Positions 2,322-23,213 of a stretch of 64,000 bases of DNA are shown here, piece after piece (positions within the stretch are counted from its first letter, which is position 1; every line of letters starts with the position of its first letter). The notes beneath the pieces are model-generated. The model ran no database searches. It saw only the letters and a program-made list of their open reading frames with translations, and had not been told where the DNA came from. A program made the position numbers and the translations under genes. This DNA is from Microbacterium sp. W4I20 (lineage in GTDB: Bacteria; Actinomycetota; Actinomycetes; Actinomycetales; Microbacteriaceae), in assembly GCF_030816505.1 (NCBI RefSeq), contig NZ_JAUSYB010000001.1:3038001-3102000 (forward strand), written 5' to 3'.

Positions 2322-3260
2322 TCAGACCTCGTCGACCGAGAACCGGAACACCGCCCCCTGCCGGAACGGCTCGACGATCTCGAAGTTCTCGAAGGCGGGG
2401 CCGCCGGGGATGGGTGAGGCGCTCGCCCAGTAGGACCAGCGGGCGTTGACGACGGCCTCGAGTTCGGGGTGCGGGTCGTCGACGCGCCAGGTCTGCACCG
2501 CACGACGTCCGAGGAACCGCCAATGCGGGGCGGTATCCGCCGAGTACTCGACCGCGGTCGGGTCGAGCTCGTCTCCGGTCGCACTTACGATCGCAGCGTC
2601 GCCGTCGCGCGTCAGGTCGGCCAACGGGAAGCGTCCGTGCTCGGTGAACGCCGTGCCGGTGAACCCGGGCCAGAGCTCTGCGGGGGTGACGACCCGGTCG
2701 GCGAGGTGCAGGCGGCGCAGCCGCGCCCAGTTGCCCATGGTCGCGGTGAGGATCAGGTGCGAGAGCGGGACGGATGCCGCGTTCGTGAACCCCGCGAGTT
2801 CGACCTCGTGCGGGCGGTCGGCGAAGAACCGAAGCCGAACCCGCACGTCAGCGCCGTTGTCGAACCGCTCCACGCCGATCCATACCGTGAGGGTCTCGAC
2901 GCCGTCGACGGTCTCGATGACCCCGGCGGCCGGCGCGGAAGTCGCACCGCGCTCGGCGGCATCCGACGCATCCGCCGACCAGAACCGCTTACCGCGCTCG
3001 CTGGGATCGAGGGTGCTGGGCTCGAGCTCGGAGAAGCCCCGAGCCGTCGCGCCGACCGGGATCGGCTCCACGGCGATGAAGTTGACCAGGCGCTCGCGCG
3101 GATGGTCGAGGTAGGGCGTGAACACCCGCAGCAGCCCGCGCGGGCCGGGGATCGGCGGGATTCCGACCTGGATGCCGTCGACATGACCCCAGCGGGACTC
3201 GGCGGCAGGAGCACCGGATGGTCGGAGCCATCCGGCAGCGGGGGAGAGGGACATGACCAT
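2322..3260 (-). CDS. Conserved hypothetical protein, probable D-arabinan regulon member
   Basis: A 312-aa protein with no signal peptide, transmembrane segment or family I can name. It is rich in beta-strand-like stretches (TVWIGVERFDNGADVRVRLRFFADRP, broken here only to show its style) and acidic/aromatic residues, consistent with a beta-sandwich or mutarotase-like fold (weak inference). Two in-frame ATGs, 3260 and 3254, are possible. It is transcribed divergently from the GH183 lipoprotein gene, and the LacI-type palindrome at 3275-3286 lies 15 nt upstream of its start. It is therefore probably controlled with the locus and concerned with the same sugar; its function is unknown. Confidence 0.7.
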   Translation of the reverse strand: MVMSLSPAAGWLRPSGAPAAESRWGHVDGIQVGIPPIPGPRGLLRVFTPYLDHPRERLVNFIAVEPIPVGATARGFSELEPSTLDPSERGKRFWSADASDAAERGATSAPAAGVIETVDGVETLTVWIGVERFDNGADVRVRLRFFADRPHEVELAGFTNAASVPLSHLILTATMGNWARLRRLHLADRVVTPAELWPGFTGTAFTEHGRFPLADLTRDGDAAIVSATGDELDPTAVEYSADTAPHWRFLGRRAVQTWRVDDPHPELEAVVNARWSYWASASPIPGGPAFENFEIVEPFRQGAVFRFSVDEV

Positions 3261-3274
3261 GACCCTAGTGCGAT

Positions 3275-3294
3275 GAAATCGATTTCGCTAGATT
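3275..3294 (+). promoter_or_regulatory. LacI-type operator plus -10 box for the GH183 lipoprotein gene
   Basis: GAAATCGATTTC is a perfect 12-bp palindrome (3275-3286) followed two bases later by TAGATT (3289-3294), a good actinobacterial -10. The ATG at 3302 lies 7 nt after the -10 with no Shine-Dalgarno sequence, so this transcript is probably leaderless. The same palindrome recurs at 4478 and 15905, and with one mismatch at 14274. Confidence 0.8.
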
Positions 3295-3301
3295 CGATCC
3301 C

Positions 3302-4450
3302 ATGCACCGACGCACCCCCTCATCCCGTCGCGCCCTCGTCGCGGCATCCGTCGTCCTGGCTCTCGGCCTCGCCGGGTGCGCAACCGGTGGCAGTCCCGAG
3401 GTCGATCCCGATCCGGACAAGCCGTTCGTGCTGACGGGGGTGACCGACGTCACCGAGATCGCGCAACTCACCGGCCCCGACGCCATGAACGACACGGCAT
3501 CCGTCTCCGTCGCCGGCACGGATCTCGGGTCGATGGTGAACGTCGGCGAGAAGACGTTCTTCCTGTTCGGCGACACATTCGGGGAGCGGGATCCCGACTC
3601 CATCGGCGGGCAGGGCGAGTTCTGGCGATCGAACGTCGCCGCCTGGACCACCGATGACGATCCGACCGACGGCATCGACTTCGAGGGCTGGGTGGAAGAC
3701 GACATCGGTCTGGCCGCCCCGCTCATCGAGGGCGATCACGACGCCAACGGAGCAGGCGGCGAGGTGACGAACATCCCCACCTACGGCTTCGCGATCGGCG
3801 AGACGATCTACGTGTCGTACATGTCGGTGAAGTTCTGGGGCGAGCCGGGCGCCTGGGATGCGAACCGTTCCGCGCTCATCGTCTCGCGCGACGACGGCGA
3901 GAGCTGGTCTCCGGTGGAGGGCGTCGAGTGGCCCGGTGACTCGAACTTCGTCCAGTTCGCGACCGCGCAGGTGAGCGAGGGCGGACAGGACTGGATCTAC
4001 TTCTGGTCGATCCCGTCCGGGCGGTTCGGCGGCGTGCAGCTGATGCGCGTGCCCGCCACCGAGAAGGCCGTCGAAGACCAGGGCGCCTACTCGTACTTCG
4101 CCGGGATCGACGGCGAGAACCCGCGCTGGAGCGACGATCTCGCCGACGCCGAGACGATCGTCGAGGGTACGATCGGCGAGCTCTCGGTGATGTGGTCGAC
4201 CTATCTCGAGCGGTGGATCATGACGTATTCGGATGCCGGCAGCGCCTACATCCGCGAGGGGATCACGCCGTGGGGACCGTGGGGCGATCCGATCGAGCTC
4301 GTGCCGGGCGCGGACTATCCCGGCCTCTACTCGCCGTACTTGAATCCGCGCTATGTCACGGAGGACGGCCGCCGGATCCACTTCTCGCTCTCCCTGTGGG
4401 ACCCGTACAACGTGTTCTGGTTCTCGGCCGATCTCCAGCGGGCTGAGTAA
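3302..4450 (+). CDS. DUF4185 / GH183-type endo-D-arabinanase, lipoprotein
   Basis: A 382-aa lipoprotein: Arg-rich n-region, hydrophobic core and lipobox LAGC with Cys26. The rest is a DUF4185 domain, a five-bladed propeller fold now called GH183 whose characterised members are endo-acting D-arabinanases on mycobacterial arabinogalactan and lipoarabinomannan. The two Asp motifs shared with the other two copies in this window are TDLG (Asp74) and FGDT (Asp91), followed by a C-terminal S-W-PYN motif. It should sit on the outer face of the membrane and cut D-arabinan into importable oligosaccharides. It is the first gene after a LacI operator, upstream of the ABC importer, and its start looks leaderless. 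Confidence 0.85.
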   Translation: MHRRTPSSRRALVAASVVLALGLAGCATGGSPEVDPDPDKPFVLTGVTDVTEIAQLTGPDAMNDTASVSVAGTDLGSMVNVGEKTFFLFGDTFGERDPDSIGGQGEFWRSNVAAWTTDDDPTDGIDFEGWVEDDIGLAAPLIEGDHDANGAGGEVTNIPTYGFAIGETIYVSYMSVKFWGEPGAWDANRSALIVSRDDGESWSPVEGVEWPGDSNFVQFATAQVSEGGQDWIYFWSIPSGRFGGVQLMRVPATEKAVEDQGAYSYFAGIDGENPRWSDDLADAETIVEGTIGELSVMWSTYLERWIMTYSDAGSAYIREGITPWGPWGDPIELVPGADYPGLYSPYLNPRYVTEDGRRIHFSLSLWDPYNVFWFSADLQRAE

Positions 4451-4477
4451 CATGACCCATGCTTTTCCCTTGCGCAT

Positions 4478-4498
4478 GAAATCGATTTCGCCTACTCT
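4478..4498 (+). promoter_or_regulatory. LacI-type operator and -10 box of the D-arabinan ABC importer operon
   Basis: GAAATCGATTTC (4478-4489), identical to the copy at 3275, followed three bases later by TACTCT (4493-4498) as a -10. The expected transcript starts near 4505 and has a leader of about 100 nt before the substrate-binding protein. Confidence 0.8.
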
Positions 4499-4605
4499 GG
4501 CGCTACCCGGTCACTGAGGATCGATCGGCCCGGCCGGTGGTCTTCGGCAACAGCCGAGCACACAGCACCGACTCGACGAGGAGTCCGTTCCCTGAGGAGG
4601 AACAA

Positions 4606-5973
4606 ATGAGAATCACCACCCGAACCCGCCGCACCGCGGTCGCCGCTCTCGGCGCCCTCACGGTCGGCGCGATGCTCGCCGCCTGCGGCGCCGGCACCCC
4701 CGGTGGAACGGCCGGAGGGGACGGCGGCGAAGACGGCGTCACCACCATCCAGTTCTGGCACCGCAACTTCACGCCCGCCGAGAACGAGTGGTACGCCAAC
4801 ATCGTCAAGGAGTTCAACAAGTCCCAGGACGAGATCAAGGTCGTCGACACCGAGGTGCCGGCCGACGCGTGGGACCAGAAGATGAAGGCCGCGCAGGCCG
4901 CCGGCAAGGCTCCCGACGTCTACACGAGCTCGGCGAACCTGCTCGACCTGGTCAACGCGGGCTCGGTGCACGAGCTCGACTCGATCGTCTCGGAAGACGC
5001 CCTCCGCCAGATCCTGGACAACGCGACGTCGATCTCCGAGGTCGGCGGCAAGCACTACGCCTACCCGCTCCTGCTCGAGCCGCAGACCGTGCTGTTCTGG
5101 AACACCGACATGCTCGACGCCGCCGGTGTCGACTCGGCTGCCGCTCCCGAGACCTGGGACGACCTGCTCGACGCCTGCGCGAAGATCCAGCCGACGCTCG
5201 GCGACGGGCAGTACTGCATCTCCCCGGCGCAGGACGCCGTGACCTTCGCCTGGTCGACGGTCGGGCAGCAGTACAACTTCGCCGGCCACCTCGCCCTGAC
5301 CGATGACTGGGCGGCGCCCGACATCGACAACGACGGCTACCGGTCGCTGATGGAGCAGTACAAGGTGCTGTGGGACAAGGGCTACATGCCGAAGCAGCCC
5401 CTCGCCGCGTACGTCGCCGGTGAGGACTTCGGCCAGCAGAAGGTGGCGTTCAAGGTCTCCGGCTCCTGGATGATGTCGGAGATCGGCTCGGACTACCCCG
5501 ACCTGCTCTCGAAGACCGGCGTCGGCGCATTCCCGAACGCCTCGGATGCCGACGGCCGCACCGCCACCACGATGGGCAACTTCACCTGGGTGGTCGACGC
5601 CAAGAGCAAGAACGCGGAGGCCGCAGGGAAGTTCCTCGAGTGGTCGATCGCGGGCGACCCGGAGAACCTCGTGCCGTTCTTCGTCGACACGCAGTTCACC
5701 AAGGTGCCGGTCCGCCAGTCGGTGCAGGATGCCGTCGCCGCCAGCCAGGAGGCCGCAGACGCCCCGTGGTCGAGCATCATCGTCGACGACATCGCGCCGG
5801 ACGCGATCGCGGGTGCGACCTACCCGTGGGACGTCAACCTCGCCGTCGGCACCGCCATGGAGTCCGTGATGAAGGGCTCGGCGTCGCCTGACGACGCGAT
5901 CAAGACGGCCAACGCCGCGATCCAGACGGTCATCGACCGTGACGGGCTGCCCGACAAGGCGCCCAAGAACTGA
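4606..5973 (+). CDS. CUT1-family ABC transporter substrate-binding lipoprotein
   Basis: A 455-aa extracellular sugar-binding protein. The ATG at 4606 follows a strong AGGAGG; upstream in-frame codons lie in the leader. Twin-Arg-like n-region, hydrophobic stretch and lipobox LAAC (Cys27) mark a lipoprotein. The remainder is typical of solute-binding family 1 (TTIQFWHR, WDQKMKAAQAAGKAPDV, ETWDDLLDAC). It is followed by two permease genes but no ATPase. Position between two GH183 genes and under the shared operator indicates that it binds D-arabino-oligosaccharides (inference). CUT1 systems lacking their own ATPase usually share an MsiK-type ATPase encoded elsewhere. Confidence 0.92.
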   Translation: MRITTRTRRTAVAALGALTVGAMLAACGAGTPGGTAGGDGGEDGVTTIQFWHRNFTPAENEWYANIVKEFNKSQDEIKVVDTEVPADAWDQKMKAAQAAGKAPDVYTSSANLLDLVNAGSVHELDSIVSEDALRQILDNATSISEVGGKHYAYPLLLEPQTVLFWNTDMLDAAGVDSAAAPETWDDLLDACAKIQPTLGDGQYCISPAQDAVTFAWSTVGQQYNFAGHLALTDDWAAPDIDNDGYRSLMEQYKVLWDKGYMPKQPLAAYVAGEDFGQQKVAFKVSGSWMMSEIGSDYPDLLSKTGVGAFPNASDADGRTATTMGNFTWVVDAKSKNAEAAGKFLEWSIAGDPENLVPFFVDTQFTKVPVRQSVQDAVAASQEAADAPWSSIIVDDIAPDAIAGATYPWDVNLAVGTAMESVMKGSASPDDAIKTANAAIQTVIDRDGLPDKAPKN

Positions 5974-6049
5974 TATCGCTCGCTGTTCGGGGGCCGGGCC
6001 CATCCGGTCCCCGAACAGCGTCGCACCCTGAGATCGCGACGAGGTGGAA

Positions 6050-6976
6050 ATGGCCAGTCAGGCTGTGCAGGAACGCCGGGAGATCCGGCAGAGACAGAAC
6101 CGGTACAAGTACCGCGACAACAGGACCGCCTACTGGTTCCTGGTCCCGCTGGTGGTGCTGCTGGGGATCTTCGTGATCTGGCCGGCGATCTACGCCGGGT
6201 TCCTCTCGTTCCAGGACTGGAGCTTCTACAAGGATCCGGAGTTCGTCGGCATCCGCAACTACGCCAACGTGCTGAAGGACCCGCTGTTCATCGCGACGAT
6301 CGGGCGCGGCTTCCTGTTCGTGCTGATGACGGTCCCGCCGATGCTGATCCTGGCCTTCCTGTTCGCCAGTCTCGTGGTGGCGGTGTCGCGCCGGGCCGCG
6401 AGCGTGCTGAAGGTCAGCATCTACATCCCGACGATCATCTCCGCGGTGATCACGTCGATCATCTTCGTGCTGATCTACAACTACTCCGGCGGTCTGCTGA
6501 ACGCGTTCCTCGGGGTGTTCGGCGTCGAGCCGATCGCGTGGATCGGTGACCCGAAGTGGGCGCTGCTCGCCGTCGCCGTCCCGGCCATCTGGCTCGGGAT
6601 GGGGCTCACCTCCCTGATCATGGTCGCCGCGATGGTCGACATCCCGACCGAGTACTACGAGGCGGCCGCGATGGAAGGCGCGAACTGGGGGCAGAAGACG
6701 GCGTACATCACGATCCCGCAGATGAAGAACGTGATGCTCTACCTGCTCATCACCGGGTTCGTCGCGGCGATCCAGCAGTTCGAGCTCCCGCTCGTGATGA
6801 CGCAGGGCGGTCCGCTCGACTCGACGACCCTGCCGAACCTCTTCATCTTCAACCACTTCCGCAACGACGTGAACGTCGGCTATTCGATCGCGGCCGCGCT
6901 GCTGCTGTTCGTGGTGCTGGGAACCATCTCGGCGCTGGTGTTCAAGTTCGTCAACTCCGAGAGGCTGGTCGACTGA
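6050..6976 (+). CDS. CUT1 sugar ABC transporter permease (MalF-like)
   Basis: A 308-aa integral membrane protein with six predicted segments and the EAA-loop signature (YYEAAAMEGANWGQKTAYITIPQ region, around residues 203-225). ATG 6050 is preferred over GTG 6044 because GAGGTGG lies at the right distance from it. It lies 77 nt after the binding-protein gene and 1 nt before the second permease. It forms the transmembrane channel heterodimer for import of oligosaccharides produced by the GH183 enzymes (inference from context). Confidence 0.92.
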   Translation: MASQAVQERREIRQRQNRYKYRDNRTAYWFLVPLVVLLGIFVIWPAIYAGFLSFQDWSFYKDPEFVGIRNYANVLKDPLFIATIGRGFLFVLMTVPPMLILAFLFASLVVAVSRRAASVLKVSIYIPTIISAVITSIIFVLIYNYSGGLLNAFLGVFGVEPIAWIGDPKWALLAVAVPAIWLGMGLTSLIMVAAMVDIPTEYYEAAAMEGANWGQKTAYITIPQMKNVMLYLLITGFVAAIQQFELPLVMTQGGPLDSTTLPNLFIFNHFRNDVNVGYSIAAALLLFVVLGTISALVFKFVNSERLVD

Positions 6977-6977
6977 G

Positions 6978-7874
6978 ATGGTCGTCATGCAGGACACCAC
7001 CCGCATCGTCCTCGCCGGCAAGGAGCCGCGGGCGCAGCGCAAGGCACCGCGCACCGCCGGCGGCTGGCTCCTCGTTCTCGGCAAGGTGATCCTCGGCGCG
7101 ATCTTCGTGATCGCCTCGCTGTTCCCGCTCGCCTGGATGATCATCGCCGGCTTCAAGTCCAAGACCGAGGTCGTCGAGACGCCGTTCCAGTTCTTCCCCG
7201 AGGTGTGGCTGTGGCAGAACTACGCGCAGATCCTCGCCGACCCGACGTTTCTGCAGACGCTCGCGTGGACGTTCATGGGAGCCGTGCTGTTCACGGTGGG
7301 AAGCCTCGCGGTGAACTCGCTCGCGGCCTACGCCTTCGCGCGGCTGGACTTCCGGTTCAAGGGGATCATCTGGGTGATCGTCATCACCACGATGTTCATC
7401 CCGGGCATGACCATCCTGCTCACGAGCTTCATCGTCGTCACCCGGCTGTCGATGCTCGACACCCTCAGCGTGCTGGTCATCCCCGGTCTTGCGAGCGCCG
7501 GCATGGTCTTCTTCATCCGGCAGTTCTACCTGAACATCCCGAAGAGCCTCGAGGAGGCGGCGATGCTCGACGGCTGCGGCCGGTTCGGCATCTTCGTGCG
7601 CATCTTCCTGCCGCTGTCGAAGCCGCCGTTCGTGGTGATGGGCATCACGGCCTTCCTCGGCTACTGGAACTCGTACGTCTGGCCGATCCTGACGATCACC
7701 TCGCCCGAGCGCTTCGTGCTGCAGCAGTACCTCGCGACGTTCCGCTCCGAGCGCAGCACCGAGCTCGGGCTGCTGATGGCCGGCTCCGTGCTGGCCGCGG
7801 CACCGGTGATCATCCTGTTCCTGATCTTCCAGCGCCAGATCATCGGCAACATCAAGATGGCGGGACTCAAGTAA
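6978..7874 (+). CDS. CUT1 sugar ABC transporter permease (MalG-like)
   Basis: A 298-aa permease, partner of the preceding MalF-like protein. It has hydrophobic segments, a periplasmic-type loop (FKSKTEVVETPFQFFPE) and the EAA motif (EEAAMLDGCGRFGIFVRIFLP region). ATG 6978 follows the previous TGA by one base. The downstream gene (GH183 copy 2) starts 22 nt later with GAGAGGAGAGG as ribosome site, so importer and secreted hydrolase are probably one operon. Confidence 0.92.
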   Translation: MVVMQDTTRIVLAGKEPRAQRKAPRTAGGWLLVLGKVILGAIFVIASLFPLAWMIIAGFKSKTEVVETPFQFFPEVWLWQNYAQILADPTFLQTLAWTFMGAVLFTVGSLAVNSLAAYAFARLDFRFKGIIWVIVITTMFIPGMTILLTSFIVVTRLSMLDTLSVLVIPGLASAGMVFFIRQFYLNIPKSLEEAAMLDGCGRFGIFVRIFLPLSKPPFVVMGITAFLGYWNSYVWPILTITSPERFVLQQYLATFRSERSTELGLLMAGSVLAAAPVIILFLIFQRQIIGNIKMAGLK

Positions 7875-7896
7875 GCGGTACCGAGAGGAGAGGTCG

Positions 7897-8997
7897 ATGA
7901 AGACCGAGAACACGTACGGACCGAAGATCAGTCGCCGGGGAGTGCTCCAGGGCGCGGCGGTGGTGGGAGCGTCCTTCTTCGCCGCGACCGCGGTGCCGGC
8001 GCCGGCGTCGGCCGCCGGCCTGACCGTGTCGAGAATCAAGGTGCTCGCGGGCACGCAGAGTCCCTCGCAGTACGGCATCGGGGCGACGGATCTCGGCATC
8101 CCCGCACGAACGCCGGACGGGCGGATGCTGTTCCTGTTCGGCGACACGTGGGCCGACCACGTCGGCGGCGCGAACTGGCGCTCCCCGGTCGCGCTGTACT
8201 CGTCGACCACGAACCTCGCGGCCGGAGTGACCTTCAACGGCTCCGGCGGGGCGGGCGCGAACACGCAGGGTGTGGCTCCGCAGCTCTGGTACTACCCGCA
8301 TGACGCCTACTTCACGACGGTCATCCCCTCGGACGTGATCACGATCGGATCGCGGATGTATCTGCACGCGATCGTGAACGGCCCGGCCTTCGGGGCCGTG
8401 CGCTGGACGGAGCTGTGGAAGTCGGACGACAACGGCGCCACCTGGCAGCACACCGGTCTGCAGTTCCCGGCGAACATGGCCGGCGGCAAGTTCCAGTGCA
8501 TCACGTGGGGCCTCGGCAGCGACGGCTACGTGTACATCTACGGCACCGGCTTCCAGCGAGACAAGGGCATCGTGCTCTACCGGGTGCCGTCGAACAACAT
8601 GACCACGCTCTCGGCCTACCAGCCGTGGGGCTTCGCGAACGGATCCTGGGGCTGGGGCAAGCCGGTGACCGAAGTGCTCTCCGGCGGGTTCGGCGAGATG
8701 TGCCTGCGTCCGCTCGGCGGCAAGTGGATCCTCACGTGGTTCAACGCCCCGGCGTACCGGATCGACGCGATGGTGCTGAACACCCCGACCGACAACCTCT
8801 ATACGGCGACGAAGACCACGCTGCTGTACGGGAGCGAGTGGAACCAGGAGGATGCTTCGCACGTCGCGCAGCTGTACGGCGGCTACATCATCCCCGGGTC
8901 GACCCTGTCGGATCTGCACCTCAGCGTGAGCCAGTGGCACACCGGGAACAACAGCGTCTACCACTCCGAGCAGTTCCGGGTGCAGGGGCTCGTGTAG
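7897..8997 (+). CDS. DUF4185 / GH183-type endo-D-arabinanase, Tat-exported
   Basis: A 366-aa protein with a twin-arginine signal (ISRRGVLQG, Arg13-Arg14), hydrophobic core and cleavage near ASAAG (about residue 40). The mature part is a single DUF4185 domain with the shared Asp motifs TDLG (Asp65) and FGDTW (Asp83), and ends in the SQWHTGNNSVYHSE motif. There is no lipobox and no accessory module, so it should be released folded outside the cell. The expected activity is endo-cleavage of D-arabinan, as in GH183. It is the last gene of the importer operon. Confidence 0.87.
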   Translation: MKTENTYGPKISRRGVLQGAAVVGASFFAATAVPAPASAAGLTVSRIKVLAGTQSPSQYGIGATDLGIPARTPDGRMLFLFGDTWADHVGGANWRSPVALYSSTTNLAAGVTFNGSGGAGANTQGVAPQLWYYPHDAYFTTVIPSDVITIGSRMYLHAIVNGPAFGAVRWTELWKSDDNGATWQHTGLQFPANMAGGKFQCITWGLGSDGYVYIYGTGFQRDKGIVLYRVPSNNMTTLSAYQPWGFANGSWGWGKPVTEVLSGGFGEMCLRPLGGKWILTWFNAPAYRIDAMVLNTPTDNLYTATKTTLLYGSEWNQEDASHVAQLYGGYIIPGSTLSDLHLSVSQWHTGNNSVYHSEQFRVQGLV

Positions 8998-9051
8998 GGG
9001 TCGCGAGAGGAGCGCGTCACGCCCGTAGGCTTGCTGCGGGACGGAGACGAC

Positions 9052-10203: not shown

Positions 10204-10265
10204 GAGCAGGGAAAGCCCCTGCTCCGCGCTCGCGCGGGTGTCCTGCCACGAAGGATCGACCTCCG

Positions 10266-11040: not shown

Positions 11041-11049
11041 CGATCCAGG

Positions 11050-12594
11050 TTAGGGCGACCGGACCAGGGCGACGTCGTCGAGCTGCAACCAGATGTCGCC
11101 GCTGTTCGTCCACACCCCGCCGAACACCTGCACCTGGTCGTTCGCGCCCGTGTCGACGTCGACCGTGAAGCGCGTCCACGCGCCGACCGAGACGAAGTGC
11201 GCCTCGCCGAGCACGGTGCCGTCGAGCTCACGCACCCCGAAGTAGCCGTTGTCGCTGTTCGTCGACGTGCGGAGGAATCCGGTCAGCCGGTACGAGGTGT
11301 TCGGCTCGACCGCGACGTCCTGCCAGATGTCGCGCCACCCCGAGTTGTACCGCACGAAGATGTTCCGGTCGCCGGTGAATCCGCCGCCCGGCGCCGTGTC
11401 GATGCCCGAGTTGGGCTTGGCGCCCCAGGTGCCGTCCGCTCCGGTGCCGACCGCATCCGACCGTTCGAAGCTCGGGTCGACGATCAGGTTCGGGTCGACG
11501 ATCATCCCGTGCTTGTCGAGCCGCATGTGCATCAGGTACACGTTGTACGGGTTCCACTGCGACATCGCGAAGTAGATCTCGCCGTCCTTGTTCCACGGAT
11601 GGAAGTAGCCGCCGTACAGCGCCGGATAGTCGGTCGAGCTCGCGACCGTCTGCGCCGGGCTCCACGGGCCCTCGGGGTTCTTCGCGGTGTGCAGCACGAT
11701 GTCCTCGCCGGACAGCGTCATCAGCAGGAACCGCTTGCTGTGTGCGTCGTACTGCACCGAGACCTCGCTCATCGGCGCATCGATGACGGGAGCGGCATCC
11801 GCTTCTTTCTTGCTCCACTTGCGGCCGTCCCAGTAGCGGTACTGGGACTTGTCGAGCAGCTTCTTCGCGGGGACCTTGGCGACCGAGACCGGGCCGTTGC
11901 GCCCGTTCTGCGTGCCGAAGACGTAGATGGTGCCGCCCTTCTGCACGTAGGACTGCATCTGGAACGGGTCGTCGCCGTCGGGGTTCTCCCACCGGGTGTC
12001 CGACACGGTCCAGTTCGCCCCGCCGTCGTCGGAGTAGGCGATGCCGGCGTGGTTCGTGTCCCACATCCCGGGCGGGCCCCACTGCTTCACCGACATGAAT
12101 CCGAGGTACTGCCGGTCGCCCACCGAGATGCCGGCCGTCGGGATCACGGTGATCTCGTCGCCGTTGATCTTCTTCGACGGGATGATCTCCTTCGCCACAC
12201 CCTGGGGTGCCTGCGCCGCCCAGTCGAACAGCATCCCGTCGGAGAGATCCGCGTCACTCGAGCGCACCAGCACGTTGCTGCGCCAGTTGCCGTTGGGCGG
12301 GGCGCCGCCGCCGGGACCGGTCCACGAGTTGCCGAACGTGTCACCGAACGCCGTCAACACATGGCCGTCGCCGTCGTCCCACATGATGCCGAGGTCGGTG
12401 GCCTTGATGTCCCACCGGCCCCAGGTGTTGTTCGGGGCGTCGGGTCCGGTGAGCTTCTCGACCACCGTGACCGGCGTCGACGCGGTCGTCGCGATCGCGG
12501 GTGCCGAGACGGCCGCGCTCGCCACGACCACCACCAGCGAAGCCAATGCGGCACCGGCCGCGAGTCGTCGTCTCTTCAGAGGCGCCATTGCCAT
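11050..12594 (-). CDS. DUF4185 / GH183-type endo-D-arabinanase with C-terminal carbohydrate-binding module, Sec-exported
   Basis: A 514-aa protein with a Sec signal peptide (KRRR n-region, hydrophobic core, cleavage near IATTA at about residue 36). The DUF4185 domain spans about residues 45-365, with the shared motifs TDLG (Asp67) and FGDTF (Asp85). A jelly-roll module follows from about residue 372 to the end (LIVDPSFERS..., WRDIWQDVAVEPNTSYRLTGFLRT region), of the CBM4/9-like kind that binds glycans. It is therefore a modular secreted endo-enzyme able to stay on cell-wall arabinan. It lies downstream of GH172 and a GNAT gene on the same strand, so the LacI operator at 14274 may control all three. 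The Asp-Gly-Asp-Gly stretch near residue 75 is unlike the other two copies. Confidence 0.87.
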   Translation of the reverse strand: MAMAPLKRRRLAAGAALASLVVVVASAAVSAPAIATTASTPVTVVEKLTGPDAPNNTWGRWDIKATDLGIMWDDGDGHVLTAFGDTFGNSWTGPGGGAPPNGNWRSNVLVRSSDADLSDGMLFDWAAQAPQGVAKEIIPSKKINGDEITVIPTAGISVGDRQYLGFMSVKQWGPPGMWDTNHAGIAYSDDGGANWTVSDTRWENPDGDDPFQMQSYVQKGGTIYVFGTQNGRNGPVSVAKVPAKKLLDKSQYRYWDGRKWSKKEADAAPVIDAPMSEVSVQYDAHSKRFLLMTLSGEDIVLHTAKNPEGPWSPAQTVASSTDYPALYGGYFHPWNKDGEIYFAMSQWNPYNVYLMHMRLDKHGMIVDPNLIVDPSFERSDAVGTGADGTWGAKPNSGIDTAPGGGFTGDRNIFVRYNSGWRDIWQDVAVEPNTSYRLTGFLRTSTNSDNGYFGVRELDGTVLGEAHFVSVGAWTRFTVDVDTGANDQVQVFGGVWTNSGDIWLQLDDVALVRSP

Positions 12595-12636
12595 CTCCTT
12601 GTGTCGCCCGCGCGCGGCGGGATGTCAGTGTCAGAA

Positions 12637-13128: not shown

Positions 13129-13129
13129 G

Positions 13130-14263
<1,134 letters not shown>

Positions 14264-14270
14264 GGCCGCC

Positions 14271-14285
14271 AATGTAATCGATTTC
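14271..14285 (-). promoter_or_regulatory. LacI-type operator and overlapping -10 for the GH172 operon
   Basis: Read on the minus strand, GAAATCGATTAC (14285-14274) differs in one base from the palindrome at 3275, 4478 and 15905. It runs into TACATT (14276-14271), a -10 box for GH172. It lies between GH172 and the divergent lacI gene, so it could also serve autoregulation. Confidence 0.7.
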
Positions 14286-14365
14286 AGCCGAGAACTCCAT
14301 AGATCGTGTTCCTCCGCGATACTGTTGCTGCACGTCCGGCGCAACCGGGCAGGCAGCGAGGACAC

Positions 14366-15352
14366 ATGGCCACGATCTACGACGTCGCAGAACTCGCGGG
14401 GGTCTCTCCCGCGACGGTCTCGCGTGTCTTCAACGGCACGAGCGTGTCGGACGAGAAGGTCGCCGCTGTCCGCGATGCCGCGGCACAGCTGAGCTTCACG
14501 CCGAATCGCACCGCCCGGTCGTTGCGTCGACAGAGCTCCGAGGTCATCGCGCTCGTCATCCCCGACATCGAGAACCCGTACTTCACCGAGATGGCCCGCG
14601 GCGTCGAGGATGTCGCGTCCGAGGCCGGCTATTCCGTCGTGCTCTGCAACTCCGACTCGCAGATGGAGAAGGAGGCGACGTATCTTCGGATCGCGATCGC
14701 CGAGCACATGTCGGGCATCATCATCGCCACCGCCGAAGAGCACTCCAACCTCGACAGCATCCTCGCCACAGGACGTCCGGTCGTGGCGGTCGACCGCAGC
14801 ACGACGTACGACATCGACGGCGTCGTGATGGCGAATCGGGCGGCGGGAATGTCGGCGACGAAGGATCTGATCGACGCCGGATACCGCCGTATCGCCTACA
14901 TCGGCGGGCCCGAGCACATCGACACGGCGGCGGAACGCGCGGCCGGCTGGCGATCAGCGCTCGGTGCCGCTCAGCCCGACCTCGACCTGGACTCTCTGGA
15001 ACGCTTCGCGACGTTCCGTGTGGACGGCGGCCGTGCGGCGATGGAGGAGCTCCTCGCGCTGGCGGACCCGCCGGATGCCGTCGTGGCGGGCAACAACCTC
15101 ATCGGGGTCGGTGCGATCCAGGTGCTCACCGAGCACGGACTGACGCCGCCGCAAGTGGGAGTCGCCGTGATCGGCTCGCTGCCGTTCACCACTCTGTCGC
15201 CGAACGCCGTGACGGTCGTGCGGCTGCCGGCGCGGCACATGGGCGTCACGGCGGCACGGATGCTGCTGGAGCGGATCAAGGGCGACAAGCAGCCGGCGCG
15301 TACGGTCGTGCTGCGCAACGAGGTGCAGCCCGCGAGCACGCAGCGCGTCTGA
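14366..15352 (+). CDS. LacI family transcriptional repressor of the D-arabinan locus
   Basis: A 328-aa regulator. The N-terminal LacI helix-turn-helix and hinge are canonical (MATIYDVAELAGVSPATVSR, then NRTARSLRR). A periplasmic-binding-like sugar sensor follows (VIALVIPDIENPYFTEMARG, then IIIATAEE, VVAVDRS, RIAYIGGP). The ATG at 14366 follows AGCGAGG; the in-frame extension to 14306 has no ribosome site. It is divergent from GH172 and lies 550 nt from the kinase promoter. The repeated palindrome at four nearby promoters is the obvious binding site. The inducer is presumably D-arabinose, D-ribulose or a D-arabino-oligosaccharide (inference). Confidence 0.92.
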   Translation: MATIYDVAELAGVSPATVSRVFNGTSVSDEKVAAVRDAAAQLSFTPNRTARSLRRQSSEVIALVIPDIENPYFTEMARGVEDVASEAGYSVVLCNSDSQMEKEATYLRIAIAEHMSGIIIATAEEHSNLDSILATGRPVVAVDRSTTYDIDGVVMANRAAGMSATKDLIDAGYRRIAYIGGPEHIDTAAERAAGWRSALGAAQPDLDLDSLERFATFRVDGGRAAMEELLALADPPDAVVAGNNLIGVGAIQVLTEHGLTPPQVGVAVIGSLPFTTLSPNAVTVVRLPARHMGVTAARMLLERIKGDKQPARTVVLRNEVQPASTQRV

Positions 15353-15364
15353 CGGGGTCTTCCG

Positions 15365-15772
15365 TCAGGAGGACTTCCAGAAACGCGTCGCCAGGTTCGC
15401 GACCTCCTTGTCGAGGTCTTCGAGCCTGCGGTCGATCGATCCCAGGCGCTCGGTGAACTTCGTGTCCATGGCGTCGAATCGGGCATCCATGGCGTCGAAC
15501 TTCACCTCCAGGATTCCGTTCAAGCCGTCGAATCGCGCATCGACGGCCTCTCGGAAGCCGTCGAATCGGGCAGCGGACCCCTCGAAGCGGGCGTCGATTC
15601 CCTCCCTGAGGCCGTCGAATCGCGCCTCGAGACTGTCGAAGCGCGCGGCGTTCTCGTTGCGGACCGACGTGATGATCCGATCGTTCTGACGCAGCAGCAG
15701 CGTGATCGCCCCGATCATGATGGCGGCGAAGACTGCGATCAGCGTCCACACCTGCGGTTCGGTCAACTCCAT
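15365..15772 (-). CDS. Small membrane-anchored coiled-coil protein with seven-residue-phased repeats
   Basis: A 135-aa protein: one N-terminal transmembrane helix (WTLIAVFAAIMIGAITLLL), then a long charged helix. The helix repeats A-R-F-D/E-G or closely related units, mostly every 7 or 14 residues, from about residue 43 to 105 (ARFDSLEARFDGLREGID and further copies). This is a coiled coil anchored to the membrane, probably oligomeric. I know of no function. It is convergent with lacI, with 12 nt between the stops. Confidence 0.7.
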   Translation of the reverse strand: MELTEPQVWTLIAVFAAIMIGAITLLLRQNDRIITSVRNENAARFDSLEARFDGLREGIDARFEGSAARFDGFREAVDARFDGLNGILEVKFDAMDARFDAMDTKFTERLGSIDRRLEDLDKEVANLATRFWKSS

Positions 15773-15904
15773 GGCTCCAGTCTGCGAGGGAAAGGCCAGA
15801 TTGTCACGGTATTCCGGTGGTGGGCGGCGCCGATCGCGCGATCAGTGGAGAACCCTCGACTGACCCGGATTGTGCAGATGAACTCTGCAGCGACCTTGCG
15901 ACAT

Positions 15905-15925
15905 GAAATCGATTTCGCGTACAGT
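15905..15925 (+). promoter_or_regulatory. LacI-type operator and -10 box of the kinase-GH116-isomerase operon
   Basis: GAAATCGATTTC (15905-15916), the third perfect copy, with TACAGT (15920-15925) as -10 three bases downstream. The transcript should start near 15932, giving about 40 nt of leader before the AAGGAGG of the kinase gene. Confidence 0.8.
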
Positions 15926-15973
15926 GACGATCAGGTTTCAGATTCCGCGCTTCAGGTTTCAAGGAGGACGCCC

Positions 15974-17521
15974 ATGCGCTGCACCCTCGGGGTGGACATC
16001 GGCACGTCCAGCAGCAAAGGTGTGCTGGTCGACGACGACGGCGTCATCGTCGCGACGGTGACCAGGGCGCACGAGGTCAGTCGGCCGCGCAGCGGCTGGG
16101 TGGAGATGGACGCGCGGGTCTGGTGGGACGAGTTCGTGTGGATCACCCGCGACCTGATCGCCGCCGCGCCGGACGCCGAGATCGCGGGTGTCGGCGTCAG
16201 CGGCATGGGACCGTGCATCCTCCTCGCCGACGAGCACGATGAGCCGGTGCGCCCGGCCATCCTCTACGGCGTCGACACGCGGTCGACGGCCCAGATCGCG
16301 CGGCTGACCGCCGAGCTCGGAACCGACGCGATCACCCGGGTCGGCGGCTCGACCCTCACCTCGCAGGCGGGCGGCCCGAAGATCGCCTGGATCGCGGACG
16401 AGGAGCCGGAGGCCATGGCCCGCGCCCGTCGCCTGTTCATGCCGGCCAGCTGGCTCGCTCGCAAGCTCACCGGGGCCTACGTGCTCGACCACCAGTCCGC
16501 GAGCCAGGTCTCACCGCTCTACGACATCGAGGGCGAACACTGGCATGAGCCCTGGTGGGCGGAGTACGCGGGGGCGATCGAGCAGCCGGCACTCGGCTGG
16601 GCCGGCGACCGCGCCGGTGAAGTGACCGCTGATGCGGCATCCGCCACCGGCCTTGCTGTCGGCACCCCCGTGATCATCGGCACGATCGACGCGTGGACCG
16701 AGGCGGTCAGCGTCGGCGCGCACGAGGCCGGCGATCTGATGCTCATGTACGGGACCACGATGTTCCTCGTGGTCACGGGGGAGGAGACGCTGCGCACCCC
16801 CTCGATGTGGACCACCGCCGGAGCCTTCGCCGGCACCCGCAACCTCGCCGGCGGCCTCTCGACCTCGGGAGCGCTGACGGCCTGGCTGAAGGACCTGACC
16901 GGCGCCGATTACCCGGAACTCCTCGAGGACGCCGAGAAGTCGGGGCCGGGAGCGCGCGGTCTGCTGGTGCTGCCGTACTTCGCGGGCGAGCGCACCCCGA
17001 TTCAGGATCCCGACGCTCGCGGCGTCATTGCGGGCCTCACCCTCGACCACACGCGCGGCGACCTCTACCGCGCCGCCCTCGAGGCGACGGCTCTCGGCGT
17101 GCGCCACAACGTCGAGACGATGCGCGCGGCCGGTGCCGACATCCGCCGGATCGTCGCGGTCGGCGGCGGCACCCAGGGGCGGCTCTGGCTGCAGATCGTC
17201 TCGGATGTCACGGGACTCGTGCAGGAGGTGCCGCAGACGACCATCGGCGCGAGTTACGGCGCTGCCTTCCTTGCAGCGACCGCGATCGCCGAGGCAGGAG
17301 AGGCACCCGCGATCACGTCCTGGAATCCGATCACCGAGACCATCCAGCCGGATGCTGCGCTGCGCGACTTCCACGACGTCCTGTTCGACCGATACGTGCG
17401 ACTGTACGAGGGGTCGAAGGATGTCGTGCACGAGCTCGCCGCAGAGCAGCGCGAACCAGCACAGCAGCGCGAACCAGCAGAGCAGCGCGAACCAGCAGAT
17501 CAGCGAAAGGCAGCCGCATGA
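15974..17521 (+). CDS. FGGY family carbohydrate kinase, probable D-ribulokinase
   Basis: A 515-aa sugar kinase. The ATG at 15974 has an ideal AAGGAGG upstream; an in-frame GTG at 15845 would run through the operator and is rejected. FGGY signatures are GVDIGTSSSKGVLVDDDG (phosphate-binding N-domain), VGVSGMGPCILLAD, and the C-domain IVAVGGGTQGRLWLQIVSDV. With the isomerase two genes downstream, it is expected to phosphorylate D-ribulose to D-ribulose 5-phosphate, feeding the pentose phosphate pathway. Xylulose- or gluconate-kinase specificity cannot be excluded from sequence alone. The last ~25 residues are a low-complexity QREPA repeat not typical of the family. ATGA overlap with GH116. Confidence 0.88.
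   Translation: MRCTLGVDIGTSSSKGVLVDDDGVIVATVTRAHEVSRPRSGWVEMDARVWWDEFVWITRDLIAAAPDAEIAGVGVSGMGPCILLADEHDEPVRPAILYGVDTRSTAQIARLTAELGTDAITRVGGSTLTSQAGGPKIAWIADEEPEAMARARRLFMPASWLARKLTGAYVLDHQSASQVSPLYDIEGEHWHEPWWAEYAGAIEQPALGWAGDRAGEVTADAASATGLAVGTPVIIGTIDAWTEAVSVGAHEAGDLMLMYGTTMFLVVTGEETLRTPSMWTTAGAFAGTRNLAGGLSTSGALTAWLKDLTGADYPELLEDAEKSGPGARGLLVLPYFAGERTPIQDPDARGVIAGLTLDHTRGDLYRAALEATALGVRHNVETMRAAGADIRRIVAVGGGTQGRLWLQIVSDVTGLVQEVPQTTIGASYGAAFLAATAIAEAGEAPAITSWNPITETIQPDAALRDFHDVLFDRYVRLYEGSKDVVHELAAEQREPAQQREPAEQREPADQRKAAA
17446..17499 (+). repeat. Three tandem 18-bp repeats at the 3' end of the FGGY kinase gene
   Basis: Units at 17446, 17464 and 17482 (GCAGCGCGAACCAGCAGA, with one base differing in the first) encode repeating QREPA plus Q/E/D. 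A degenerate fourth unit follows. Unit loss or gain would keep the frame and only change the length of the kinase tail just before the ATGA junction with GH116. Confidence 0.9.
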
Positions 17522-20190
17522 CCCGGCGCGCACGCGGCATCCCGCACACCTCACAGCCCACGGCCTTTCCCCTCGGCGGCGTCGGCACCGGCAACGTCTC
17601 GATCGGCGCGCGCGGCGAGCTGCGCGACTGGGAGTTCGAGAACCTGCCCGACAAGGGGCGCCGCAACCCGCACTCCTTCTTCGCGATCCACGCCCGCCCC
17701 GAAGGCGGCACACCCGTGACCCGGGTGCTCGAAGCGAAGCTCACCGGCCGCCACGATGCCGACGCGGGTTATGCATTCGATCAGCTGGCGGGCCTTCCGC
17801 GGCTCGACGGCGCGACCCTGCACGGCGAGTATCCCGTCGTCGACGTCGATTTCACCGACGCGATTCTGCCGGTCGACGTCTCGCTACACGCCTTCACCCC
17901 GCTCGTGCCGCTCGACGCCGACGCATCCGGCATCCCGAGCGCGGTGCTGCGATACCGCGTGACGAACCCCGGCACGGTGCCGGTCGCCGTGACCGTGGTC
18001 GGCAGCGTCTCGCACACCGCCGGTCGCGGCACGCCAGGACCGGACGCGCCCTGGGGCATGCGCGCGACCCAGACCGTGCGGTGGCGTGAAGACGCAGACG
18101 TGCGCGGTCTCGACTTCGGCATCGACCTCCCCGAGGACGACCCGGGCTACGGCACGCTGAGCCTGACGACGACGGATGCCGCCACCACGGTCAAACCGCA
18201 GTGGGTCACGAGCTACTGGCCGGATGGCGCCCGACTGTTCTGGAACGACCTCACCGACGACGGGCTGCTCGCGCCCGAGCCACGGCTCACACTGGAGGAT
18301 CGCCCGCGCGGGCTGTTCGCCGAGCTCGACGCCGATCCGGATGCTGCGCCGCTCACCGAGGAGGAGATGCTCGCGAAGCTCCCGCGGCTGCGTACGGGCT
18401 CCCTCGGCATCGTGCACACCCTCGCCCCCGGCGAGTCGCGCGACTTCGAGTTCATGCTGTCGTGGAGCTTCCCCAACCGGAGGCGCGGCTGGCACGGGCA
18501 CATCATTCAAGAAACACCGATGAATGCCGATGGGTCCCTGAGCCTGTCGAAGGGCGCGGATCCTCCCGCCGACGGCCCGCTGTCCCCCATCGTCCGCAAC
18601 CACTACGCGACCCTCTGGCCCGATGCCTGGGCGGCGGCGACGCACCTGCACACCCACCTGCCCACGCTCGAGTCCGCGACCGACGCGTTCGTCGAGGCGC
18701 TGTATGGCAGCAGCCTCGACCCCGTGCTCATCGACGCGATCGGGGCGAACATCGCCGCCGCCCGCTCGACCACCGGATTCGTCCTCGAGTCGCCGAATCC
18801 GGGACTCGGCGACGGGCCGGTGTTCGCGGCCTGGGAAGGATCCTTCGACCACGGCGGATCGTGCGAGGGCACCTGCACGCACGTCTGGTCGTACGCGCAG
18901 ACCCTGGCCTGGCTGTTCCCTTCGCTCGAGCGCAGCGCGCGCCGGGTCGAGTACCTGCTCGAGACCGATGAGGCCGGCGCGCAGAAGTTCCGCGGCAACC
19001 GCATCTTCGGCGGGCCGTCCTGGTTCATGGCTCCGGCGGTCGACGGGCAGCTCGGAACCCTGCTGCGGCTGCTCCGGGAGTGGCGGTTCAGCGGGGACGA
19101 CGACTTCCTGCGCGAGCTGTGGCCCGCGGCATCCCGCACCCTCGACTACGCGATCCGCGAGTGGGATCGCGACGGCGACGGGCTGCTCGACGGCGAGATG
19201 CACAACACCTACGACATCGAGTTCCACGGCGCCGAGCCGCTCGCGAACGGTGTCTACCTCGCCGCCCTCCGCGCCGGCACCCGGATGGCGCAGCACCTCG
19301 GTGAGCCGGAACGCGCGCGCGACTGGGCGGCCAGAGCCGACCACGTCGCGGCCGCGATGGACGAGACGCTCTGGAACGGCGAGTACTACCGTCAGGTGAT
19401 CGACGACGCCGACGCGCACCGGTACCAGTACGGCGACGGCGTGCTGTCCGATCAGCTGCTCGGACAGTTCCACGCCTCCGTGAACGGGCTGGGGCACATC
19501 CTCCCCGCTGAGCGGGTCGACTCCGCGCTCGCCGCAATCGTCGCCCACAACCACCGCGACGACCTGTCCACCCATGAGAGCACCCAGCGGGTGTACGCGC
19601 TGAACGACGAGGGCGGACTGCTGCTCGCCTCCTGGCCGAACGGCGGGCGACCCGCGATCCCGTTCGTGTACTCCGACGAGGTGTGGACGGGCGTGGAGCA
19701 CCAGGTCGCGGCATCCCTCCTCTTCGCCGGCCGCTACGACGACGCGCTGCTCGTCGAACGCACACTGCGCGCCCGCTACGACGGTGAGCACCGCAGCCCG
19801 TGGAACGAGATCGAGTGCGGCAACCACTACGCCCGCTCGCTCGCCTCCTGGGCGCTGCTGCTCGGCGCGACCGGCGCGCAGTGGGATGCGCCGTCGGGCG
19901 TGCTGTCGTTCGCGCCGGTCGGCGGCGCTTCGACAGGCTCAGCGACCCAGGGTGGACGCTCAGCGACCGACCGGTTCCTCTTCACCACCGGCACCGGCTG
20001 GGGACGCGTCGAGATCGACGGCGACGCCCTGACCCTCCACCTCGACGGCGGCGATCTCGACATCGCCGAACTGCAGCTGCACGGCCGGACCATCGGTCGC
20101 GGCATCCGACTCGGCGCGGGCGACTCGTCGCCCGGCTCGACCACCCAGCGTTTCCCCCTCAGCACGACCACGACACCGGAGGCATCATGA
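17518..20190 (+). CDS. GH116 family glycoside hydrolase, probable exo-D-arabinofuranosidase
   Basis: An 890-aa cytoplasmic enzyme starting MTRRARGIPHTSQPTAFPLGGVGTG, the GBA2/GH116 N-terminal signature (GG-x-G-x-G). The beta-sandwich N-domain reaches about residue 330, then an (alpha/alpha)6 barrel follows. Candidate catalytic regions are GSCEGTCTHVW (about residue 446, nucleophile Glu) and DGEMHNTYDIEF (about 555, acid/base Asp). GH116 includes beta-glucosidases and beta-xylosidases, but a Microbacterium member with exo-D-arabinofuranosidase activity has been reported (recalled). Context strongly favours the latter. There is no signal peptide. Start and stop overlap the neighbours by ATGA. 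A 28-bp dispersed repeat (18529-18556) is inserted in frame as a SLSLSKG loop. Confidence 0.88.
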   Translation: MTRRARGIPHTSQPTAFPLGGVGTGNVSIGARGELRDWEFENLPDKGRRNPHSFFAIHARPEGGTPVTRVLEAKLTGRHDADAGYAFDQLAGLPRLDGATLHGEYPVVDVDFTDAILPVDVSLHAFTPLVPLDADASGIPSAVLRYRVTNPGTVPVAVTVVGSVSHTAGRGTPGPDAPWGMRATQTVRWREDADVRGLDFGIDLPEDDPGYGTLSLTTTDAATTVKPQWVTSYWPDGARLFWNDLTDDGLLAPEPRLTLEDRPRGLFAELDADPDAAPLTEEEMLAKLPRLRTGSLGIVHTLAPGESRDFEFMLSWSFPNRRRGWHGHIIQETPMNADGSLSLSKGADPPADGPLSPIVRNHYATLWPDAWAAATHLHTHLPTLESATDAFVEALYGSSLDPVLIDAIGANIAAARSTTGFVLESPNPGLGDGPVFAAWEGSFDHGGSCEGTCTHVWSYAQTLAWLFPSLERSARRVEYLLETDEAGAQKFRGNRIFGGPSWFMAPAVDGQLGTLLRLLREWRFSGDDDFLRELWPAASRTLDYAIREWDRDGDGLLDGEMHNTYDIEFHGAEPLANGVYLAALRAGTRMAQHLGEPERARDWAARADHVAAAMDETLWNGEYYRQVIDDADAHRYQYGDGVLSDQLLGQFHASVNGLGHILPAERVDSALAAIVAHNHRDDLSTHESTQRVYALNDEGGLLLASWPNGGRPAIPFVYSDEVWTGVEHQVAASLLFAGRYDDALLVERTLRARYDGEHRSPWNEIECGNHYARSLASWALLLGATGAQWDAPSGVLSFAPVGGASTGSATQGGRSATDRFLFTTGTGWGRVEIDGDALTLHLDGGDLDIAELQLHGRTIGRGIRLGAGDSSPGSTTQRFPLSTTTTPEAS
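18529..18556 (+). repeat. Dispersed 28-bp repeat inside GH116
   Basis: Identical over all 28 bases to 39942-39969 inside the unrelated GH38 gene. The core is CTGAGCCTGTCGAAG. Here it is in frame and encodes part of GSLSLSKGA in a loop between the two GH116 domains. Confidence 0.9.
19928..19949 (-). repeat. Inverted, two-mismatch copy of the dispersed repeat near the GH116 3' end
   Basis: On the minus strand this reads TGGGTCGCTGAGCCTGTCGAAG, matching the 18529 and 39942 copies except for one base in this core and one beyond it. It lies in frame in GH116 (GGASTGSATQ), in a region likely to be a surface loop. Confidence 0.8.
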
Positions 20191-21821
20191 CCACCTACAC
20201 CCTGCCGACACCGGCATCCCGCCCGGCATCCGCGCCCCAGACCGCGTACCTGATCGCCTCCGGTGACCTGCGCGAAGCGGCCAACACGGGCGGCTGGCCG
20301 GTGCAGGTCGAGCTCGAGGCGGGCGTCACCGGCGTGTTCGAGGGCCTCGGGTGGACGGTCATCCGCGCCAATGAGGTCGATCCCACCACCGGCCACGGGT
20401 TCATCTCGAGCCAGCGCATGGGCCTCGAGGTCTTCAAGAACATCCCGACGGATGCTCCGCTCATCGTGGCCGAGGCCGTGTGGCAGTACTCGCACCACGT
20501 GCTCGCCGGACTCCGCACGCACCGGGGGCCGATCCTCACGGTCGCGAACTTCGCCGGCGACTGGCCGGGGCTCGTCGGGCTGCTCGGGCTCAACGCGGGG
20601 CTCACGAAGATGGACAAGCCGTACGCCTCGATCTGGTCGGTCGATTTCACCGACGACTGGTTCAAGGCCGGTATCAAGGAGTGGACCGAGACCGGCTCGA
20701 TCACGCACGACGGCTCGCACGTGCGCGCCCTGCCCGAGCTGCCCGACAGCCCGGAGAAGCAGCTGGGCGAGGCGCTCGCCGCAGAACTGTTGGCGGAGAA
20801 GGCCATCATCGGCGTCTTCGACGAGGGCTGCATGGGCATGTACAACGCCATCTTCGACGACGAGCTGCTGAACAAGACCGGCATCTACAAGGAGCGCCTG
20901 TCGCAGTCGGCGCTGTACGCCGAGATGCTGAACGTGTCGGAGGACGAGGCGGATGCCGCCTACACCTGGCTGACCGACAAGGGCATGACCTTCGTCTACG
21001 GCGAGGATGCCGCCACCGAACTCACCCGCGAGCAGGTGCAGTGGCAGATGAAGATGTACATCGCCGCCCTCCGCATCGCGGACGACTTCGGCCTCGACGC
21101 GGTCGGCATCCAGTACCAGCAGGGTCTCAAGGACCTCGTCCCGGCATCCGACCTGGCCGAGGGCATGCTGAACTCGACCGAGCGTCCGCCGGTGACCTCG
21201 CGCGACGGCTCGCGCGTGCTGCACGAGGGCCGTGCGTTCCCGCACTTCAACGAGGCCGACGAGGGTGTCGCGGTCGACGCGCTGGTCACCGACCGGGTCT
21301 GGCGCGCGATGGGACTCGTGCCCGACAACACCCTGCACGACGTGCGCTGGGGTGAGGACTTCGACGGCCAGTTCGTCTGGGTCTACGAGATCTCGGGCTC
21401 GGTGCCGGCCTCGCACCTCGGCGGCTGGCAGAACGCCGAGGGCTGGCGCCAGGGCCACGTGTTCTTCCCGGCGGGTGGCGCGACGATCAACGGCGTCTCG
21501 AAGCCGGGCGAGATCGTGCTGTCGCGGGTGTTCATCGCCGACGGCATCCTGCAGGCCGACATCTTCCGCGCGTCGGTCGTCGAGCTGCCGGCCGAGGAGA
21601 CGAAGCGCCGCAAGGACGCCACGAACCCGGAGTGGCCCATCGCGCACGTGGTGCTGCACGGCATCTCGCGCGACCAGTTCATGGCCCGGCACAAGGCGAA
21701 CCACGCGCAGACCGTCTACGCGCCGGATGCCGAGACCGCCGACAAGGCTCTCATCGCGAAGGCCGCGATGTTCGCCGGCATGGGCATCAAGGTCAACCTC
21801 GTGGGAGACGTGAACCTCTGA
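20187..21821 (+). CDS. L-fucose/D-arabinose isomerase family protein
   Basis: A 544-aa member of the L-fucose/L-arabinose isomerase superfamily (FucI/COG2407-like), an enzyme class that also converts D-arabinose to D-ribulose. Visible features are VFDEGCMGMYN (metal-binding Glu candidate), a central IGIQYQQG-like strand (VGIQYQQGLKDLVP) and the C-terminal HGISRDQFMARHKANH with the conserved His/Asn-His. It is cytoplasmic. The ATG overlaps the GH116 stop (ATGA) and ends the operon kinase-GH116-isomerase. With the kinase it gives the two steps from D-arabinose to D-ribulose 5-phosphate. A strong hairpin follows the stop. Confidence 0.85.
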   Translation: MTTYTLPTPASRPASAPQTAYLIASGDLREAANTGGWPVQVELEAGVTGVFEGLGWTVIRANEVDPTTGHGFISSQRMGLEVFKNIPTDAPLIVAEAVWQYSHHVLAGLRTHRGPILTVANFAGDWPGLVGLLGLNAGLTKMDKPYASIWSVDFTDDWFKAGIKEWTETGSITHDGSHVRALPELPDSPEKQLGEALAAELLAEKAIIGVFDEGCMGMYNAIFDDELLNKTGIYKERLSQSALYAEMLNVSEDEADAAYTWLTDKGMTFVYGEDAATELTREQVQWQMKMYIAALRIADDFGLDAVGIQYQQGLKDLVPASDLAEGMLNSTERPPVTSRDGSRVLHEGRAFPHFNEADEGVAVDALVTDRVWRAMGLVPDNTLHDVRWGEDFDGQFVWVYEISGSVPASHLGGWQNAEGWRQGHVFFPAGGATINGVSKPGEIVLSRVFIADGILQADIFRASVVELPAEETKRRKDATNPEWPIAHVVLHGISRDQFMARHKANHAQTVYAPDAETADKALIAKAAMFAGMGIKVNLVGDVNL

Positions 21822-23197: not shown

Positions 23198-23213
23198 TCT
23201 CGACCCGAACTCT

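Follow-up and report, generated by a model that had tools for sequence, protein, structure and literature searches.

Among the described systems for D-arabinan use, the closest is the locus MIAR_33170-33320 of Microbacterium arabinogalactanolyticum, reported in 2023 with four enzymes, a transporter, an isomerase and a kinase. The main text of that report (PMC10509167) describes induction of the locus by D-arabinose and by mycobacterial wall extract and mentions related clusters in other Actinobacteria, and its Fig. 9b legend gives a D-ribulose-5-phosphate route. Another such system is PUL42 of Dysgonomonas gadei, for which the text of PMC10115798 describes GH172, GH183 and a predicted fucose isomerase, and to which PMC10509167 ascribes a putative GH116 gene. 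The words LacI, operator, repressor and regulator do not occur in the main text of PMC10509167, nor do LacI or regulator in that of PMC10115798. No D-arabinose LacI regulon was found in the literature searched, a body with most subscription papers outside its scope.

The window referred to below is the whole stretch of 64,000 nucleotides analyzed from Microbacterium sp. W4I20. An earlier note on this DNA had assigned three GH183 proteins, GH172, GH116, an importer, an isomerase, a kinase and a LacI protein to positions 2322-21821, all of which are present according to gene calling by codon usage and Pfam scans. Endo- and exo-acting D-arabinan hydrolases, an importer, an isomerase and a kinase, the combination that characterizes a D-arabinan utilization locus, are thus found together. 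The comparison with the published cluster, also raised in that note, makes the locus in the window a near-collinear relative, as far as the text of PMC10509167 describes the latter: both contain a GH183 set, GH172, GH116, an SBP_bac_8-type importer, an isomerase and a kinase, and the locus tags of M. arabinogalactanolyticum run through the order of the window in reverse, their numbers leaving two places free between GH116 and GH172, the position of the kinase and LacI genes in the window. That locus has four GH183 proteins, whereas the window has three, and the window contains a gene for a 312-aa protein and four operators that are unmentioned in the main text of PMC10509167. PUL42 shares GH172, GH183 and a predicted fucose isomerase with the window but belongs to the Bacteroidota.

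It is highly probable that the window holds an inducible D-arabinan utilization locus, orthologous to that of M. arabinogalactanolyticum and placed under a LacI repressor, a reading founded on families, key residues, operators and conservation established from the sequence. The earlier note had presented the whole pathway to D-ribulose 5-phosphate as newly added, a claim that cannot stand because transporter, isomerase, kinase, route and induction are already given in PMC10509167; its other proposed addition, the regulation, is new relative to the main text of that paper. The new elements are therefore the support for a regulator and one 312-aa component, while the locus type, the enzymes, the importer, the isomerase, the kinase and the induction are known.

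Gene content and predicted pathway

Positions 2322-21821 begin with the gene of the 312-aa protein (2322-3260, minus strand), one that the earlier note passed over. It is followed on the plus strand by GH183a (3302-4450), the sugar-binding lipoprotein (SBP) of a CUT1-type importer (4606-5973; PF01547 and PF13416), importer permeases A (6050-6976) and B (6978-7874), both matching PF00528, and GH183b (7897-8997). Beyond a methyltransferase, a DoxX and a GGACT gene lie GH183c (11050-12588), a GNAT gene and GH172 (13130-14215 as called) on the minus strand, and then, on the plus strand, the predicted LacI-family repressor (14366-15352; PF00356 and PF00532), an FGGY pentulose kinase (15974-17521), GH116 (17518-20190) and the isomerase (20187-21821). 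The methyltransferase, DoxX, GGACT and GNAT genes and a short ORF at 15365-15772 have no evident link to D-arabinan. Four-base overlaps join kinase to GH116 and GH116 to isomerase. GH172, GNAT and GH183c are co-oriented and separated by 1 and 48 bases, which would allow transcription of GH183c from the GH172 promoter; in M. azadirachtae (L010), GH183c directly follows GH172. An in-frame ATG at 14263, read by eye, is a likelier GH172 start than the called 14215. At the 3' end of the kinase gene (17440-17505), right before GH116, a short imperfect tandem repeat was seen by eye. No RNA families or tRNAs were found in the window. Among the records listed, from which those very near the window may have been left out, the closest named locus is that of Microbacterium sp. 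EST19A, with a GH172 98% identical.

The hydrolases can be related to crystallized enzymes over nearly their full length: GH183c, which has a C-terminal binding domain, to EndoMA1 (8hhv, 921 bits), GH172 (DUF2961; PF11175) to ExoMA1 (8ic8, 801 bits), and GH116 to ExoMA2 (8ic6, 1543 bits). The DUF4185 domain (PF13810) scores 383, 268 and 236 bits in the three GH183 proteins (267.7 in GH183a, 236 in GH183b) against a curated cut-off of 39.5, and these three are the only GH183 matches in the whole genome of 4.31 Mb. Export signals of the locus proteins were read by eye, including an N-terminal lipobox (LAGC) in GH183a and a twin-arginine-like N-terminus in GH183b. Key residues were mapped by hand from alignments, with a chain-numbering offset of 4 for GH116 that was itself derived by hand, and their roles come from the crystal structures as described in the text of PMC10509167. 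The catalytic acids Asp33, Asp51 and Glu243 of EndoMA1 fall on columns 65, 83 and 275, which are invariant across the three GH183 proteins; Asn253 of ExoMA1, stated in that text to block fructofuranose, is kept in the GH172 alignment; and Glu431, Asp557, His446 and Arg483 of ExoMA2 (nucleophile, acid/base, His and Arg) are kept in GH116. With these matches and kept residues, D-arabinan use by the predicted GH183, GH172 and GH116 hydrolases, as the earlier note had read the locus, is well supported.

Within the locus the importer consists of the SBP and two permeases, and no ABC ATPase is among the genes called there. CUT1 systems of Actinomycetes usually share an MsiK-type ATPase, and one protein of the genome, encoded about 0.7 Mb from the locus, has an OB_MalK domain. 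The kinase is XylB-like and stays under every equivalog cut-off shown in NCBIfam (XylB, 305.5 bits against 380.25); its product would be D-ribulose 5-phosphate. For the isomerase, a longer ORF gives a short match above cut-off to PF02952, the C-terminal domain. Its AF2 model (pLDDT 88.9) resembles in predicted fold the L-fucose/D-arabinose isomerases 1fui, 4c20 and 3a9r (Foldseek E ~1e-20, probability 1.00, 14-16% identity), with a large full-chain rmsd of more than 20 A in the Foldseek matches, and L-arabinose isomerases also match, at 1e-17 and weaker. The sequence has no match to solved isomerases at 0.001, and its profile matches the D-arabinose isomerase of Bacillus pallidus marginally (E 0.074 over 90 positions). 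The fold and the C-terminal domain together point to a predicted L-fucose/D-arabinose isomerase.

In the proposed mechanism, the three exported GH183 enzymes would cut D-arabinan outside the cell, and the pieces would be taken up by the CUT1-type importer with an ATPase encoded elsewhere. Cytoplasmic GH172 and GH116, classed as predicted exo-alpha- and exo-beta-D-arabinofuranosidases, would release D-arabinose from alpha and beta bonds, after which the enzyme of fucose-isomerase fold would form D-ribulose and the FGGY kinase D-ribulose 5-phosphate. The 312-aa mutarotase-like protein may speed the interconversion of the released D-arabinose forms.

Several features were observed in the neighboring DNA. 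Positions 21992-29576, in which the genome-wide search with up to one mismatch places no D-arabinose operator, encode an endo-beta-N-acetylglucosaminidase H (EndoH; above the NCBIfam cut-off), a GH92 mannosidase and a second SBP/permease importer, and look like a high-mannose N-glycan locus. Beside this importer lies a 436-aa protein (29793-31103) without a match in Pfam or NCBIfam, whose N-terminus resembles, by eye, that of a protein in locus L093. A GH38 alpha-mannosidase at 38010-41019 is split over two frames, with N-terminal and middle domains at 38010-40640 and C-terminal domains at 40003-41019; the gene is broken or the sequence contains an error. Genes for purine breakdown occupy 51500-63998: a deaminase, two purine-type permeases, xanthine dehydrogenase subunits with XdhC, OHCU decarboxylase, HIU hydrolase and uricase.

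The predicted LacI repressor and its operator

Four operator sites are distributed over the locus. Exact copies of TGAAATCGATTTCR lie at 3274-3287, between the divergent 312-aa and GH183a genes; at 4477-4490, in the spacer of TTGCGC-N17-TACTCT before SBP; and at 15904-15917, in the spacer of TTGCGA-N18-TACAGT before the kinase. The fourth, at 14273-14286 between the divergent GH172 and LacI genes, has one mismatch. When both strands were searched with up to three mismatches, 14 matches were obtained against a chance mean of 3.5, a number reached by 0 of 100 shuffles. Genome-wide, TGAAATCGATTTCA with up to one mismatch occurs at four places only, all in this locus, and its reversed control pattern at none.

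The association of operator and repressor was followed in 149 genomes of the genus, taken as Microbacterium since places in them coincide with named records, for example G115 with L001. Exact TGAAATCGATTTCR sites are present in 52 of them and LacI (E <= 1e-60) in 55, including all 52 (Fisher p 5e-37, a value that overstates independence since the genomes are related). The stronger point is the placement of the sites, 121 of 122 lying within 20 kb of LacI; no gene of the locus stands near the remaining one, the second place in G098 (L096). Of the three genomes with LacI and no exact site, two have a LacI of 52-54% identity and G143 one of 82%. A chance motif is ruled out by the shuffles, the genome-wide restriction and the co-occurrence with LacI, and the proposal of the earlier note that one operator ties the locus together is borne out. 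The predicted LacI repressor and the 14-bp operator seem to be the candidate switch of the D-arabinan locus. Some copies are broken: one TGA was seen within GH172 in G001 and G042, and one within LacI in G085.

The comparison was extended to the 80 best of at least 580 named GH172 loci, a tblastn hit being kept if its E was <= 1e-8 and 40% or more of the query was covered. In 18 of these 80 (L001-L015, L019, L020 and L025), from Microbacterium, Sanguibacter, a Cryobacterium MAG, a Rhodoglobus MAG, Promicromonospora, Planctomonas and Agromyces, GH172 adjoins a LacI of 62% identity or more. The gap between LacI and GH172 has a one-mismatch site in all 18 and a perfect palindrome in none, an imperfection that would suit a weaker site for autoregulation. 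Drifted operator forms precede kinase, GH172 and LacI in several loci of Streptomyces, where LacI is about 50% identical.

Promoters were counted by the rule that the operator fills the spacer of TTGNNN-N(16-19)-TANNNT. The count covered 32 of 81 sequences (the window and L001-L031) and took every site of no more than one mismatch that has a gene 260 bp away or less; a site between divergent genes was scored once for each gene. The rule holds at 27 of 50 structural-gene counts versus 0 of 45 at LacI/GH172, with 0.2% for shuffled flanks. Two sites in the window, those of SBP and the kinase, obey it, and the one at 3274 does not. The 23 failures comprise all 11 counts at GH183a/312-aa, where no locus keeps to the spacing, six in L027, L030 and L031, two in L025, and one each in L011, L013, L014 and L015. 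Bound to its four TGAAATCGATTTCR-type operators, of which two or more lie within the -35/-10 spacer, LacI would silence the operons, and D-arabinose or a close product would release it.

The gene that the operator accompanies indicates what the switch may sense. The isomerase, present in 68 of the 149 genomes (E <= 1e-100), occurs in all 52 operator genomes, and GH172 in only 34 of them. Twelve of the 18 operator genomes without GH172 were inspected in stretches of 18-19 kb (L085-L095 and L098), which contain LacI and isomerase in 12 of 12, the kinase in 11 of 12 and no GH172 or GH183 hits; the other six (G023, G033, G060, G077, G127 and G146) were covered by the operator, isomerase and LacI searches. 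Because operator genomes lacking GH172 keep LacI and isomerase, a switch for arabinanases alone is ruled out. The operator follows the isomerase rather than the arabinanases, which argues for a predicted D-arabinose switch onto which the arabinanase genes were added, with D-arabinose or a close product as the probable effector; this reading fits the induction by free D-arabinose published in the text of PMC10509167.

Among the inspected stretches, L085, L086 and L088 have LacI, isomerase and kinase beside DHDPS-family, SDR-family, in L086 enolase-family, and other ABC genes, with no GH172 or GH183 in the stretch (DHDPS and SDR of L088 being recognized by eye from the N-terminus); such a gene set may form a parallel oxidative route for pentoses. 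In L093 (genome G022), LacI, operator and isomerase directly adjoin an EndoH gene, and kinase, GH116 and GH172 are absent from the 18-kb stretch.

The 312-aa protein

The 312-aa gene, with an operator 14 bp upstream, belongs to the predicted LacI regulon. Of the 149 genomes 20 have it, each of them one of the 34 GH172 genomes, and in G029 and G090 it was seen broken into two pieces. The protein has no match in Pfam or NCBIfam, and no convincing relatives were found in Pfam, PDB sequences or Foldseek. Its AF2 model (pLDDT 92.2), compared by VIA-align, tentatively suggests a galactose-mutarotase-like fold, and there is no sequence-level match to the galactose mutarotase/aldose 1-epimerase entries 3ty1 and 4bze that represent this fold.

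A role as D-arabinose mutarotase is proposed from the model at modest odds. The fuller proposal, that the protein founds a new D-arabinose mutarotase family, interconverting ring forms and anomers after GH172 and GH116 and sharing with the isomerase the control of a D-arabinose repressor, the operator of which extends from Microbacterium to other Actinomycetes and has drifted in Streptomyces, is tentative and somewhat doubtful. The chances are about even that the protein is instead another supersandwich enzyme with D-arabinan pieces as its substrate, for example a hydrolase, a lyase or an accessory domain. In Z the epimerases are equalled by hydrolase and lyase domains, those of GH36, GH38, GH97, PL26 and a GH174 fucanase scoring level with them against the model; Aldose_epim is not among the Pfam families listed at E <= 10 for any of 44 family members; and the invariant residues of the family do not evidently include the canonical histidine pair of GalM. 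Replacement of the absent gene by an ordinary aldose epimerase was not seen either, the 14 GH172 genomes without it having no Aldose_epim (PF01263) gene closer than 50 kb to GH172 on its contig (the nearest, in G144, is 73 kb away by coordinates compared by hand), so that this test gives the mutarotase idea no support. Against the other supersandwich enzymes stand the single-domain build of about 300 aa, in which no signal sequence was seen by eye, and the fact that in 8 of the 20 genomes the gene comes immediately after that of the isomerase.

Natural substrate and significance

The mycobacterial GH183 enzymes are suggested in the text of PMC10115798 to act on their own wall, and the hydrolases of the locus might similarly remodel the bacterium's own envelope. 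The genome has no Emb-type arabinosyltransferase (PF04602), which the same search finds in the control Corynebacterium glutamicum, and the importer, isomerase and kinase of the same locus also speak against self-remodeling, which is rejected on the former ground and considered extremely improbable. It is conceivable, if rather unlikely, that the locus is real and its natural food is another D-arabinofuranose glycan, such as an O-antigen or a pilin glycan: the hydrolases recognize D-arabinofuranosyl bonds and not a species, and the GH183 set differs among related loci in the comparison of named GH172 loci. However, according to the text of PMC10509167, wall extract of mycobacteria induces the sister locus, whose enzymes break down both arabinogalactan and lipoarabinomannan. 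The mycobacterial or corynebacterial wall would be read as the probable natural food.

For the D-arabinan locus, the analysis names a candidate for the repressor together with an operator of 14 bp. Both are testable by gel shift, and the operator is usable in pattern searches for D-arabinose regulons. The pathway gains one unstudied protein of 312 aa, and enzymes that digest D-arabinan are tools for the analysis of the mycobacterial envelope.
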